The position numbers were made by a program, and so were the translations under genes. From Aestuariispira insulae (GTDB taxonomy: Bacteria; Pseudomonadota; Alphaproteobacteria; UBA8366; Aestuariispiraceae): a stretch of DNA of 64,000 nucleotides. Numbering within the stretch: position 1 is the first letter of the stretch; the number at the start of each line of letters is the position of its first letter. Shown one piece after another: positions 27,879 through 35,497 of the stretch. The notes below the pieces were generated by a model. The model did not search any database. It was not told the DNA's origin and saw only the letters and a list, made by a program, of their open reading frames with translations. The stretch lies in contig NZ_QRDW01000003.1 in the NCBI RefSeq assembly GCF_003385955.1, positions 310,001 through 374,000 of the forward strand, read 5' to 3'.

Positions 27879-29114
27879 ATGTCTGATTTTTTTGATGCGT
27901 TGGAAACAAGAAGCCAGGACGAGCGTGAGGCATCGCAACTGTCGCAATTAAGCCTGCAGCTGGCCCATGCCAGAAATTATGCGCCACATTATCAGACCAT
28001 TTTGGCCGATGTGAACCCGGCGGAGGTGGGGGCGTTTGAGGCGTTGGCCGCCCTGCCGGTCACCCGGAAATCCGATCTGATCGCGGCCCAGGCCAGCAAG
28101 CCGCCGTTTGGCGGCCTGACCGCAACCCCGGTCGGCAAGCTGAACCGGCTTTATATCTCACCAGGGCCCATCGCGGATCCGGAAGGCCATGGCGAGGATT
28201 GGTGGCGCATGGGTCGCGCGCTTCATGCCGCGGGTTTCCGCGCCGGAGACCTGGCGCTCAATTGCTTTTCCTATCACCACACTCCGGCCGGTCATATGAT
28301 GGAAACCGGTGCCCGCGCGGTGGGCTGTGCGGTATATCCGGGCGGTGTCGGCCAGACAGACGCTCAGGTTCAGGCGGTGACCACCTATGGCCTGAACGGC
28401 TATATCGGCACCCCGGATTTCCTGAAGCTGATCCTGGATAAGGCGGATTCCTTGTCGGCGGATATTTCCAGCCTGAAAAAGGCCTTTGTTTCCGGAGGCG
28501 CTTTGTTCCCGTCCATGCGCGAAGAATATGGCGCGCGCGGTATTGCCACCTATCAGGCCTATGGGACGGCGGACCTGGGGCTGGTGGCTTATGAAACGGA
28601 AGCCGCTGAAGGCATGATCCTGGATGAAAATGTGATTGTCGAGATTGTTCGCCCCGGCACCGGCGAGTTGGTGCCTGATGGCGAGGTGGGCGAGGTGGTG
28701 GTCACGCTGCTGACCAATGTGGATTATCCGCTGATCCGGTTTGCTACTGGCGATTTATCGGCGATCATGGAGGGGCAGAGCCCTTGCGGACGCACCAATA
28801 AACGGATCAAGGGATGGATGGGCCGCGCCGATCAGCGCACCAAGATCAAAGGCATGTTTGTGGATCCGGCCCAGGTCGATCGGGTGGTCAAAGCCCATGC
28901 ACCGATCATGAAGGCGCGGCTTGAGGTCAATCTGGTCGACAATAAGGATCAGATGGTGCTTAAGGTTGAAACGGAGGATCTTAGCGAGGGTTTCCGCGAC
29001 CAGGTCGCCGGCAGTTTGCAGACCGAATGCAAGCTGAAAGGGGTTGTGGAGCTCATGGCCCCTGGCAGCCTGCCCAATGACGGTAAGGTGATTGACGATC
29101 AACGGGTTTATTAA
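27879..29114 (+). CDS. Phenylacetate-CoA ligase family protein
   Basis: A 411-aa adenylate-forming ligase related to PaaK. It starts with the PaaK-like helical segment 'LAHARNYAPHYQTILADV' and 'ALPVTRKSDLIAAQ'. Nucleotide-binding-type elements include 'AFVSGGALFPSMREEY', 'YQAYGTADLGLVAYE', 'LIRFATGDLSA' and 'GWMGRADQRTKIKGMFVDPA'. The usual PaaK P-loop with SSGTTGKP is replaced by 'LYISPGPIADPEGHGED', a pattern seen in transporter-linked members. It ends the operon, before a bidirectional terminator, and is probably a second activating ligase for the imported acid. Confidence 0.88.
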   Translation: MSDFFDALETRSQDEREASQLSQLSLQLAHARNYAPHYQTILADVNPAEVGAFEALAALPVTRKSDLIAAQASKPPFGGLTATPVGKLNRLYISPGPIADPEGHGEDWWRMGRALHAAGFRAGDLALNCFSYHHTPAGHMMETGARAVGCAVYPGGVGQTDAQVQAVTTYGLNGYIGTPDFLKLILDKADSLSADISSLKKAFVSGGALFPSMREEYGARGIATYQAYGTADLGLVAYETEAAEGMILDENVIVEIVRPGTGELVPDGEVGEVVVTLLTNVDYPLIRFATGDLSAIMEGQSPCGRTNKRIKGWMGRADQRTKIKGMFVDPAQVDRVVKAHAPIMKARLEVNLVDNKDQMVLKVETEDLSEGFRDQVAGSLQTECKLKGVVELMAPGSLPNDGKVIDDQRVY

Positions 29115-29140
29115 TGATCTGAAAACGAGAGATAATATGA

Positions 29141-29177
29141 AAACGGCCCGGTAGGTATTCCGGGCCGTTTTTCTTTT
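29141..29177. terminator. Bidirectional terminator between the ligase operon and small-protein unit B
   Basis: AAACGGCCCGG and CCGGGCCGTTT form an 11-bp perfect stem with an eight-base loop. The plus-strand tail is TTCTTTT; the minus-strand tail is weaker and AT-rich. Confidence 0.85.
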
Positions 29178-29215
29178 GGGGGTATTCATCTGCTGTAGGC
29201 AGACTTTTCGGGAAA

Positions 29216-29274
29216 GGGTCCGGGCCACCGGATGGGGGGCAGGCAGTTAAACGATAAAGCCCGGGCCCTCTCCC
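29216..29274 (-). ncRNA. Conserved 3' structured element, copy B
   Basis: This element is 12 bp past the stop of small ORF B. A 30-bp core (29227-29256) is identical to copy A at 29808-29837. It is flanked by arms that pair in each copy but with different bases. In this copy GGG (29216-29218) plus GGGCC (29222-29226) can pair with GGCCC (29264-29268) plus CCC (29272-29274) around a 3x3 internal loop. On the minus-strand RNA the conserved loop is rich in C. A structured 3' UTR or a processed small RNA is likely (inference). Confidence 0.5.
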
Positions 29275-29285
29275 AAACTTGAAAA

Positions 29286-29450
29286 TCAAGCTTTCTGGTT
29301 CAGCCTCTCGCCGCGATTGGCTTTCTCCCGGCTGATCAGGGCCTGATTATTCTGGTCGTCTTCACAATTACCCTGCAGGTTTGCCGCCAGGTCATCAATG
29401 CGGTCAAAAGACAGGCATTCTTCCATGATGACGGGGTTCAAGAGGGTCAT
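29286..29450 (-). CDS. Small protein, tandem paralogue B (54 aa)
   Basis: This small ORF has an AAGGAGC ribosome site eight bases before its ATG. Its product starts 'MTLLNPVIMEECLSFDRIDD' and ends RLNQKA. Paralogue A (29866-30030) has exactly the same length and nearly the same first 20 residues, while the rest diverges. Both copies share upstream and downstream blocks, which strongly supports a real gene. It is hydrophilic, with two Cys in this copy and no signal peptide or membrane helix. A constant N-terminus with a variable C-terminus recalls leader/core peptides, but no modification or export genes are nearby. I do not recognise a family. Confidence 0.6.
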   Translation of the reverse strand: MTLLNPVIMEECLSFDRIDDLAANLQGNCEDDQNNQALISREKANRGERLNQKA

Positions 29451-29499
29451 TGTTTGCTCCTTGGTTGTTGTCGCTTTCTGATTATCAATATGAGGGAAG

Positions 29500-29556
29500 G
29501 GGCGGGGTCAGTTACATGGCATAGATTCCAGTGGTTTTTACCCCTGCACAAAACAT
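29500..29556 (-). promoter_or_regulatory. Conserved upstream block of unit B
   Basis: Read on the minus strand: CAGGGGTAAAA, four bases, CTGGAATC, two bases, TGCCATG. The same order and nearly the same spacing occur before unit A. The block lies about 60-105 bases before the ATG, consistent with a promoter or operator. It fits neither the sigma-54 nor the standard vegetative consensus. Confidence 0.45.
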
Positions 29557-29694
29557 TGAAAACAAACAGTTTGTTCCCGAGTTTTCTGCTTGTAGGCAAT
29601 AAGTCCGCACAAAACGGTTATTCATTTACCCCCGGATGCGTGACATTAGTTCCACAGGGGTATTTCTTCAGTCTTGTAGGCGTTTGAAGAAGGA

Positions 29695-29731
29695 ATAAAG
29701 AGAACCCCCCGGATATTTCTGTCCGGGGGGC
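29695..29731 (-). terminator. Terminator of small-protein unit A
   Basis: CCCCCCGGA and TCCGGGGGG form a 9-bp stem with an eight-base loop. On the minus strand it is followed by TTCTCTTTATT. It lies about 70 bp past structured element A. Confidence 0.75.
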
Positions 29732-29796
29732 TTTCCATGGGGGTACATGAGTTATTTTTAACAAGTGGTACCATACTAGAGACCGTGTCTGAGGCA

Positions 29797-29856
29797 GGGG
29801 CGGGGCTACCGGATGGGGGGCAGGCAGTTAAACGATAGGGGCCCGACCCCTTCCCC
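29797..29856 (-). ncRNA. Conserved 3' structured element, copy A
   Basis: This copy starts 9 bp after the stop of small ORF A and shares an identical 30-bp core (29808-29837) with copy B. Its arms are GGGG-C-GGGG (29797-29805) and CCCC-TT-CCCC (29847-29856), so eight GC pairs can form. The arm sequences differ from copy B while pairing is kept, which argues for selection on RNA structure. Confidence 0.5.
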
Positions 29857-29865
29857 AAACACGTA

Positions 29866-30030
29866 TCAGACGGGCTGTTTCCGTTCGTCATCCTGTTGGA
29901 TGATGTCCTGGCTGATCATCGTCTGAATGGCGTCGAAGCTGGCTTGATGGTCCATCTGCGCCGCCGTGAACGCGTCGAGCGCGTCAAAGTTCAGCAACTC
30001 TTCCATGATCACGGGGTTTGAGAGGGTCAT
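29866..30030 (-). CDS. Small protein, tandem paralogue A (54 aa)
   Basis: The ORF has an AAAGGAGC ribosome site nine bases before ATG 30030. The product begins 'MTLSNPVIMEELLNFDALDA' and ends RKQPV. Ten of its first 11 residues match paralogue B, as do 'FD..D' and a later 'IS'; the C-terminal half diverges. The product is acidic and Gln-rich, with no Cys, no signal peptide and no membrane helix. The unit is a 580-bp tandem duplication with unit B. Function unknown. Confidence 0.6.
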   Translation of the reverse strand: MTLSNPVIMEELLNFDALDAFTAAQMDHQASFDAIQTMISQDIIQQDDERKQPV

Positions 30031-30083
30031 TTCAGTCAGCTCCTTTAATCAGTTGTTGTCTCCGTCTGAACAAAAGATGGGGC

Positions 30084-30143
30084 ACAGGGCCGGGCATGTT
30101 CCATGGCAGTGATTCCAGCATCTTTTACCCCCCTGGGTGCTGG
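30084..30143 (-). promoter_or_regulatory. Conserved upstream block of unit A
   Basis: On the minus strand: CAGGGGGGTAAAA, four bases, CTGGAATC, two bases, TGCCATG. This matches the block of unit B. A shared ACAACAAC stretch lies closer to each ATG. This is probably the transcription control region. Confidence 0.45.
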
Positions 30144-30252: not shown

Positions 30253-30795
30253 ATGGCAAAGATACCTGCCGAATATGTTGCCGATATTGAAGGCAATTCC
30301 CGCCTGGGCACACGCGTTGCCCAATGGCTGCGCGTGTATGGCGGATCGATCAAGGGGGATGCCCGGAAATTTGGTGTGGCACCGGCAACCGCCAGAAGCT
30401 GGCGCGATGGCAACCAGCCGCAGGTCCGGCATCTGGATTTGATGATTGAGGCCTGGGGCCAGCCCTTTGTTGAATATATTTTCGGCGAATTGATGACCCA
30501 GGACCAGCTCAGCCTGGAAAAGCGGATTGAGCGTATGGAGGCCGAAGTGGTCGCCATGAAACTGTGGGCCCAGGAATTTGAAGAGGATAACCGCGATGCC
30601 ATCAAGGCATCGGAAAAGCGTCAGCCGGGATCGCGCGGCATGCAGATGGTCGCGCGCGGCATGACCATGGCGGTTGCCGTCTTTGTATTGCAGGCCACCT
30701 TCCATGTGGCGGGTGACAATGACTGGCGCACCGCGCCCCACGGCCCGGCGGTGGTGAAGGTGAAGCGGCGTGAATTTACCTTGGGCGCAGCCTGA
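30253..30795 (+). CDS. Helix-turn-helix protein with possible C-terminal membrane segment
   Basis: A 180-aa protein. A helix-turn-helix-like region lies at about residues 30-75 ('IKGDARKFGVAPATARSWRD', with GQPFVEYIFGEL after it). A charged helix, probably a coiled coil, follows at about 80-110 ('KRIERMEAEVVAMKLWAQE'). A moderately hydrophobic stretch near 140-158 ('MTMAVAVFVLQATFHVAG') may be a weak membrane segment. The gene is divergent from the small-protein units, and its start is 223 bp from small ORF A, so it is a candidate regulator of them (inference). Ribosome site is mediocre (AGAGG, 12 bases away). Confidence 0.6.
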   Translation: MAKIPAEYVADIEGNSRLGTRVAQWLRVYGGSIKGDARKFGVAPATARSWRDGNQPQVRHLDLMIEAWGQPFVEYIFGELMTQDQLSLEKRIERMEAEVVAMKLWAQEFEEDNRDAIKASEKRQPGSRGMQMVARGMTMAVAVFVLQATFHVAGDNDWRTAPHGPAVVKVKRREFTLGAA

Positions 30796-33215: not shown

Positions 33216-33815
33216 ATGAATATCGTGAAAACTCTGTCTTTTTCCGTCGCTGCTGTTGCGTTGACCTTTGGCACGGCTTTGCCAATATCCTCCGTCTCGG
33301 CGGAGGAAGCCTATGAGCAATCAATTCGCGAAGTCGTTGAAGCTAAGCTGCGCGGCGTGCTGAGCGATAGCGTTGTGATTGAAGCCATCCAGGAACAAAA
33401 TCTACGGCATCAGAAGCTTCAACTGGCGGATATCGACCGCCTTGACAAGGAATGGCGCGCTCAAGTTGATGCTGCTGCAAAACCGTTGATCACGGAAGTG
33501 CTCAATAAGCCCGTATCCGATTATTTGCGGGAAGTTCTGATCTCCGGAAAAGGCCTATACACTGAAATCATTGTCATGGATTCAAAGGGTCTGAATGTTG
33601 GAGCCAGCACAATCACGTCCGATTATTGGCAGGGCGATGAGGCGAAATTCACCAAAACCTTCGTTCAGGGGAAGGACGCCATGTTCGTCGATGCGGTGGA
33701 AATGGATGAGTCCACCCAGACACTGCAATCCCAGGTCAGTTTCACCATCGTTGATCCGGTCAGTGGACAGCCCGTTGGGGCGGTTACGGTCGGTATCAAT
33801 ATGGATGAGCTCTGA
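33216..33815 (+). CDS. Secreted Cache/PDC-like sensory protein
   Basis: A 199-aa periplasmic protein without a membrane anchor. The signal peptide is residues 1-29 ('ISSVSAEEA'). The mature part is a helix followed by a Cache-like fold: 'YTEIIVMDSKGLNVGASTIT', 'SDYWQGDEAKFTKTF', and 'SQVSFTIVDPVSGQPVGAVT'. This pattern is usual in the periplasmic domains of chemoreceptors and sensor kinases (the SDYWQGDE and DP..G.PVGA motifs). It precedes a chemoreceptor gene by 44 bp, so it probably presents a ligand to that receptor (inference). Confidence 0.8.
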   Translation: MNIVKTLSFSVAAVALTFGTALPISSVSAEEAYEQSIREVVEAKLRGVLSDSVVIEAIQEQNLRHQKLQLADIDRLDKEWRAQVDAAAKPLITEVLNKPVSDYLREVLISGKGLYTEIIVMDSKGLNVGASTITSDYWQGDEAKFTKTFVQGKDAMFVDAVEMDESTQTLQSQVSFTIVDPVSGQPVGAVTVGINMDEL

Positions 33816-33859
33816 TCCGGCGCAAAACCGGTCCCTAAATTTTTATGATGGAGGCTGTG

Positions 33860-35497
33860 ATGCGAACATGGTCTGTGGGTCGGCGCGTGGGCCTTACGAT
33901 GGCGGCGGCGACAATGGTTGGATGCTTGATTCTCGGGGGCGCGCTGGTCGTGACCCAATTCGGTGAAGCGAAGGAAAGCGAGCGGCAGAATATTGCGTTG
34001 CTGACAGGTCTCTTCTCCGAGCAGATTTCGGGATTTGTGCGCTGGAACAAAACCGAATTGATGGATGCAACGGTCCAGAATATGGGATCAGCGGCCCAGC
34101 GCCGGATGGCTGAAGTTCTAATTCTCGATACGGATGGAAAACCGGTATTTGAAGCACCGGCAACCGGAGCCGAAAGCTATGGAGCCCTTTACCCCCTGCC
34201 GGACGCGCTGGCGGTTGGGCTGGACCATGATGCCATGACAGTTGCCGACGCAGGTGGGCATTTCCTGACCCTGCAACCGGTAACAATCCTGAAGAAAGGT
34301 GAAAAGGTCAGGGTTGGCACCTTGGCGGTGGCCTGGAGTCAGGAATTGCTGCGGGAATCCCTGTTGCACCTGATTGGTATTGCAACCTTGGTGACCTTGG
34401 CGGTGATGACTGGTTTGGTTCTTTTGTTAAACGGGGTCCTGCAGCGCCTGCTGATCCGGCCGATCAACGCGATCACCCAGGTGATGACCCGTTTGGCCGA
34501 TGGCCAGAATGATATTGAGATACCGGCCCTGGAGCGCGGGGACGAGATTGGTCATATGGCATTGGCGGTTCGGGTATTCCGCGACAATGCATTGGAACGC
34601 GAACGGCTGGAAGCGGCGGCGGAAGCCAACCGTGCCCGCCGGGAAAAACGGGTCGCGCGTGTCGATGAACTGGTTCACAGTTTTGAAGATGCGGTTACAG
34701 CCGTGATCCAGAGCCTCTCGATTTCGGCCAATGATCTTCATTCTACTTCGCAACAGCTCTCTTCAACCGCCAGCCAGACCACCAGCCAGGCGGCCACGGT
34801 CTCGGAGGCATCGGACCGCAACGCGGCCAGTGTACAGATGGTGGCAACCGCATCGGAAGAGCTTTCGGCCTCTATCCGCGCGATCAGCCAACAGGTGCAT
34901 GACACATCCGAAATGACCAAACAGGTGGCGGGCGAGGTGCATGCCACCAATGAGGCCGTTGATAAACTGGCCGATGCGGCGCGCGAGATTGGCGATGTGG
35001 TCTCCCTGATCAATGATATCGCCGAACAGACCAACCTGCTGGCGTTGAATGCCACGATCGAGGCAGCCCGGGCCGGGGATGCCGGCAAGGGCTTTGCTGT
35101 AGTCGCAAGCGAGGTCAAGGGACTGGCCAGCCAAACCTCGCAGGCGACTGACAATATCACCGGTCGGATCACGGAAATACAAAACACGGTTTCTGTTTGC
35201 GTGGATGCAATCCGTTCGATCACCCGGAATGTCGGTCATGTGGAGGAACTGGCCGCCACCATTGCCGGCACAACGGAACAGCAGACTGCCACCACCGGCG
35301 AGATTGCCCAAAATGCCCAGATGGCCGCCGAAGGCACCGATGCCGTGGCCAGCAATATTTCCGGCATCATCAATGCGTCCAAAGAAACCGGGGATGCGGC
35401 ATCGGTGGTGCTGCAATCCGCGTCTGGTTTAAGTGAGCAGGCGAGCACTTTATCGGCCCAGGTCAGCCGCTTCCTGGAAGATGTGCGAGCCGCCTGA
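33860..35497 (+). CDS. Methyl-accepting chemotaxis protein
   Basis: A chemoreceptor of about 545 aa. TM1 is at about residues 10-32, a compact periplasmic domain follows to about 160, and TM2 lies at about 172-195. HAMP follows ('[20 protein letters not shown]'), and the signalling domain has the tip '[20 protein letters not shown]'. The periplasmic part ('[20 protein letters not shown]', '[13 protein letters not shown]') resembles a single Cache-like domain. GGAGG lies five bases before ATG 33860; an ATG at 33845 is in frame. It forms a probable two-gene unit with the secreted Cache-like protein. Confidence 0.92.

Follow-up and report, generated by a model that had tools for sequence, protein, structure and literature searches.

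A tandemly duplicated small-protein module with a candidate C-rich-loop regulatory RNA in its 3' region in Aestuariispira insulae

Introduction

When two small neighbouring open reading frames (ORFs) share their first residues and differ afterwards, is the protein the part of the unit that matters, or does something else in the repeat carry the conserved function? The question is raised by a locus of Aestuariispira insulae lying in a window of 64,000 nucleotides, the whole stretch of DNA analysed here (contig NZ_QRDW01000003.1, positions 310,001 to 374,000; coordinates below are those of the window). The original prediction for this locus was of a repeated unit encoding small proteins with a constant N-terminus and a variable C-terminus, reminiscent of precursor peptides, antitoxins or stress proteins. 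We find that the best conserved part of the unit is non-coding, and we tentatively read the locus as a small-protein gene whose 3' region may also provide a regulatory RNA.

Results and Discussion

Organisation of the tandem modules

The locus consists of two minus-strand modules in tandem, flanked on one side by the terminal gene of a liv-type operon and on the other by a divergent HTH gene. The features are as follows.

27879-29114, plus strand: AMP-binding ligase, last gene of the liv-type operon
29140..29171, minus strand: terminator, module 1 (strong terminator-like stem then T)
29204..29278, minus strand: 3' hairpin, module 1 (-36.0 kcal/mol, z -3.15)
29227..29256, minus strand: invariant 30-nt loop region, module 1 (identical to module 2)
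29286..29450, minus strand: small-protein gene, module 1 (54 aa, MTLLNPVIMEECLSFD..., acidic, pI 4.46)
29457..29462, minus strand: ribosome-binding site by sequence, AAGGAG, module 1
29511..29544, minus strand: conserved promoter/operator-side block, module 1 (same pattern as the module 2 block)
29703..29732, minus strand: intrinsic terminator, module 2 (strong stem then T)
29784..29865, minus strand: 3' hairpin, module 2 (-39.8 kcal/mol, z -3.75)
29808..29837, minus strand: invariant 30-nt loop region, module 2 (TATCGTTTAACTGCCTGCCCCCCATCCGGT)
29866..30030, minus strand: small-protein gene, module 2 (54 aa, MTLSNPVIMEELLNFD..., acidic, pI 4.05)
30040..30046, minus strand: ribosome-binding site by sequence, AAAGGAG, module 2
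30098..30131, minus strand: conserved promoter/operator-side block, module 2 (GGGGTAAAA N4 CTGGAATC N2 TGCCATG N AAC)
30253-30795, plus strand: divergent HTH gene (180 aa)

Read along the minus strand, each module runs from the conserved promoter-side block through a 5' leader, roughly 60-70 nt long, with a good ribosome site at its end, to the 54-codon ORF, the 3' hairpin and an intrinsic terminator. Both predicted ORFs are present where they had been placed, both encode 54 aa, and their starts lie 580 bp apart as described. Repetition of the entire unit (upstream block, ribosome site, ORF, 3' element and terminator) had also been proposed, and two lines of evidence agree with it: DNA blocks repeated between the modules at a spacing of 580-588 bp (63 nt at 83%, 58 nt at 72% and 49 nt at 82% identity), and blastn within the genome, where two separate stretches match between the modules with E values of 1.6e-12 and 2.5e-13, far beyond chance. 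At the sequence level the data support a small-protein unit, carrying its own promoter side, ribosome site and terminator, that has been duplicated in tandem. The terminator stem of module 1 is followed by a T run on the plus strand as well, and this terminator is apparently common to the module and the convergent ligase gene of the liv operon.

The small proteins

Trained on nine neighbouring genes, codon statistics score the two ORFs at +21.8 and +21.0 in their true frames, compared with -36 +/- 11 for shuffles and values below zero in the two remaining forward frames. GC3 is 0.68 and 0.81 in the ORFs versus 0.69 in the neighbouring genes. Equally good scores are reached by the reverse-complement frame, the usual mirror effect of GC3 periodicity; by its sequence features, the minus strand is the sole fit for the order of ribosome site, promoter-side block and terminator.

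The peptides are identical at 10 of the first 11 residues and then share L.FD..D, in agreement with the original prediction. Identity over the whole length is 35% without gaps, and none are needed for full-length homology. The C-termini have indeed diverged as claimed, but they are not unrelated: similarity stays above shuffles over the diverged residues 12-54 (BLOSUM shuffle P 5e-5 from residue 12 and 0.004 from residue 17), and the ORFs keep the same length and frame despite 46% DNA identity over codons 17-54. Codons 1-11 differ by four changes, three of them at third positions, too few to prove constraint at the protein level. The description "fixed start, free end" holds for the protein, but constraint is strongest in the loop region (30/30) and the promoter-side block, both of them outside the ORF.

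Both proteins are hydrophilic and acidic, and structure models predict, with moderate confidence, one helix through the C-terminus in each. Searches of the small proteins against PDB gave no match, and those against Pfam and NCBIfam gave no family match and no DUF1127. The antitoxin-like reading is not upheld, there being no toxin partner and no family match. A type I toxin was also considered and set aside, given the hydrophilic and acidic character of the peptides.

The 3' hairpin and its loop

Directly 3' of each stop codon, the 3' element forms a long predicted hairpin of about 22 bp around a C-rich stretch, CUGCCUGCCCCCCAU, which is identical between the copies at all 30 positions. It is this 30-nt stretch, not the protein, that is the best conserved part of the module. 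Identity is also high in the promoter-side block and across the initial 33 nt of the ORF, versus 46% over codons 17-54. Were sites to change independently at the rate of codons 17-54 (46% DNA identity), the 30/30 match would have a chance probability of about 1e-10, although constraint is here inseparable from patchy gene conversion because there are only two sequences, both paralogues.

In both copies the element is predicted as a single long hairpin that greatly outperforms shuffled sequences (z -3.15 and -3.75), with a 21-nt loop, GUUUAACUGCCUGCCCCCCAU, unpaired in both folds. The arms differ between copies, yet native partners still pair (at -36.3 and -39.9 kcal/mol, versus -26.3 and -36.1 when swapped); the 2-1 swap pairs almost as well as the native arms, the pairing register of the stem has moved by one between copies, and covariation support from the two paralogous sequences is thin. 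The hairpin is not itself the terminator, since a separate strong terminator follows each one. A stem that has diverged and is still predicted to pair, around an unpaired invariant loop, is as would be expected for an RNA with the loop as its working part.

An Rfam search returned nothing at gathering level except one tRNA, and its weak matches were mostly terminator hairpins. Against its own mRNA, the loop gives predicted pairing that does not exceed that of shuffled sequence. Outside the two modules, the genome has neither another copy of the loop nor a 22-nt site complementary to it, at up to 3 mismatches. An integron attC origin was rejected on inspection: RYYYAAC / GTTRRRY core sites are absent from the hairpin ends, and there is a single RYYYAAC-like word (GTTTAAC) in the loop.

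The promoter side

The promoter-side block occurs in two copies only in the genome (searched at up to 3 mismatches). Consensus patterns for sigma-70, sigma-54, EcfG and RpoH reveal no site common to both modules. A GGAAC-N-GTT string of the sigma-EcfG type precedes module 1 alone, with no conserved counterpart in module 2; the one RpoH-type string, CTTG-N-CCCAT at 29765 by a rough consensus, is in front of neither gene. In the divergent promoter region, a 9-bp inverted repeat (ATTCCAGCA / TGCTGGAAT, 30112-30120/30138-30146; shuffle P 0.014 in one test) overlaps the conserved block of module 2, and module 1 has a half-site only. A regulatory link between the HTH gene and the modules is possible.

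Distribution

Many further copies would have supported a family, and this expectation was not borne out: protein, profile, DNA and pattern searches find exactly two copies in the 4.8-Mb genome and none elsewhere. No relative was recovered by profile search in 13 other genomes of the same family and 43 of the same order, nor was any found in 384 genomes drawn from the class, and the small protein is absent from the phage, plasmid and viral-contig collections searched. The module is a lineage-restricted tandem unit, orphan among the genomes searched, "orphan" meaning here that it was not found in those genomes. It may be genus-wide, as the window's own genome was the only one of its genus in the searched set.

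Several candidate matches were discarded. A 96% DNA match on C5 lies, by eye, inside an MlaD-like frame. The sole match in the named genome collection, L040 from Bacteroidetes, amounts to a single short peptide match within another, much longer open frame and was taken as chance. Elsewhere the RNA model retrieved only unrelated G+C-rich palindromes; those in G305 and G365 are intergenic and have no such ORF alongside. Similar G+C-rich intergenic palindromes, of the CCCTCTCCC / GGGAGAGGG type, are seen in other Alphaproteobacteria at L073:1440-1640 and L074:1440-1640, where they score with the hairpin model by composition.

Comparison with known systems

Small-protein mRNAs with sRNAs derived from their 3' UTRs are known in Alphaproteobacteria. 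In Rhodobacter sphaeroides ccaF1-CcsR1-4, a short small-protein gene is followed on the same transcript by 3' UTR sRNAs and a Rho-independent terminator, and the CcsR RNAs are cut out of the ccaF1 3' UTR (PMC10253847, PMC8625941). The modules resemble this locus (the CIN1 locus, with its cuckoo RNAs) in having a small-protein gene, a candidate 3' UTR RNA element and a terminator. In contrast to ccaF1-CcsR, the protein here is acidic and is not DUF1127 (no Pfam or NCBIfam match), there is one hairpin per gene rather than four sRNAs, the gene itself is duplicated, no RpoH-like promoter is conserved (rough consensus), and there is no Rfam match. The loop motif of the ccaF1-CcsR / CIN1 (cuckoo RNA) loci is CCUCCUCCC, which is absent from both modules and has a single occurrence elsewhere in the window. 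In those loci, RNase E frees the sRNAs from the mRNA.

C-rich loops are working parts of alphaproteobacterial sRNAs; GsrN of Caulobacter pairs with the katG leader, and no other part of this RNA is as well conserved as its exposed C-rich loop (PMC5869019). The predicted folds of both hairpins here likewise leave a C-rich loop exposed. GsrN is a member of the sigma-EcfG general stress response, with BLASTn homologues limited to Caulobacteraceae, whereas a sigma-EcfG-type GGAAC-N-GTT is found here upstream of module 1 only. To our knowledge, GsrN is not part of any protein-coding transcript. The module is not a member of either the ccaF1-CcsR or the GsrN family: it lacks DUF1127 and CCUCCUCCC, and its two copies have no EcfG site in common nor, by a rough consensus, an RpoH one.

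A proposed small-protein mRNA and candidate regulatory RNA

The explanation that we prefer, tentatively, is a tandemly duplicated small-protein mRNA with a candidate C-rich-loop regulatory RNA in its 3' UTR. Each module would be one short transcription unit of about 400 nt with two products: a 54-aa acidic and probably helical protein, and a hairpin in the 3' UTR with an exposed C-rich loop that would act as a regulatory RNA. The hairpin might act in trans, base-pairing to G-rich ribosome sites or leaders once released from the mRNA, or it might act while still part of the mRNA. The unit would have been duplicated in tandem in this lineage, after which the promoter-side block, the translation start, the first 11 residues and the loop were kept and the rest of the protein drifted. 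Transcription, translation, hairpin release, pairing and targets are all steps that we infer.

A more specific version is rather doubtful, namely that the modules are a lineage-specific pair of dual-function transcripts combining a previously undescribed family of small acidic proteins (MTLxNPVIMEExLxFD) with a new C-rich-loop regulatory RNA, where identical loops would give shared RNA targets, the proteins would differ, and the conserved function would reside in the RNA rather than in the protein. If true, this would be a compact natural case of a gene whose RNA part stayed perfectly preserved through duplication while its protein part drifted, and the small-protein-plus-sRNA arrangement would have arisen more than once in Alphaproteobacteria. 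In the annotation of small orphan ORFs, the untranslated parts deserve a look as well.

Alternative explanations and genomic surroundings

Nearly as likely as the regulatory-RNA reading is that the small protein is the only product and the hairpin a cis element of its own mRNA, serving stability, processing, localisation or protein binding to the loop, with nothing acting in trans. The strong coding statistics of both copies, the gapless full-length homology of the proteins, the position directly 3' of the stop codon and the lack elsewhere in the genome of loop copies or 22-nt complementary sites (up to 3 mismatches) all suit such an element; a plain stability hairpin, however, needs no invariant 21-nt single-stranded loop, although a protein-binding site could. 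That the ORFs are spurious and the locus a chance, non-functional duplication of an intergenic repeat is improbable: it would account for the lack of relatives in everything searched and for arms resembling the G+C-rich intergenic palindromes that the RNA model picked up in two other genomes, but not for the codon statistics, the ribosome sites, the identical ORF length and frame despite 46% DNA identity, or the presence of only two copies in the genome. Less credible still are precursor peptides of a ribosomal peptide or bacteriocin, with constant leader, variable core and enzymes encoded elsewhere in the genome. RiPP precursors share with these proteins the conserved N-terminus, diverged C-terminus and tandem copies, but a Pfam scan of 30 window proteins found no modification domain (the original prediction had itself remarked that no modification gene is present), the acidic helical C-termini have no Cys/Ser/Thr clustering, core motif or GG-type processing site, and conservation reaches into non-coding parts, the best conserved being an RNA-type element.

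The surroundings bear on one further alternative, which we regard as unlikely: that the locus is a mobile-element or prophage remnant, in which the modules arrived together with the HTH gene as its targets or as accessory genes. The ligase has been conserved across the family, at 58-71% identity in 10 of 13 genomes, but what lies behind it is different in each relative examined, so that the modules sit in a variable spot; the modules and the HTH gene vary among relatives as well, local GC is 0.51, compared with 0.57 for the window, and the divergent promoter contains the 9-bp inverted repeat. The HTH protein, which has a hydrophobic stretch in its C-terminal part, has only distant relatives (34-37%) in three other Alphaproteobacteria genomes among those searched, one of which has three copies, and some of these are beside phage-type genes by reading of frames. 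Against a mobile origin, neither the HTH protein nor the small protein matches any of 50,697 phage records, the small protein has no match in viral contigs or plasmids, no integrase or transposase was seen nearby among the proteins scanned, and none of the loci of the HTH relatives has such modules.

Further along the window, a plus-strand gene at 33216-33815 immediately precedes a chemotaxis receptor gene (33845-35497); its 199-aa product has no match in Pfam or NCBIfam.
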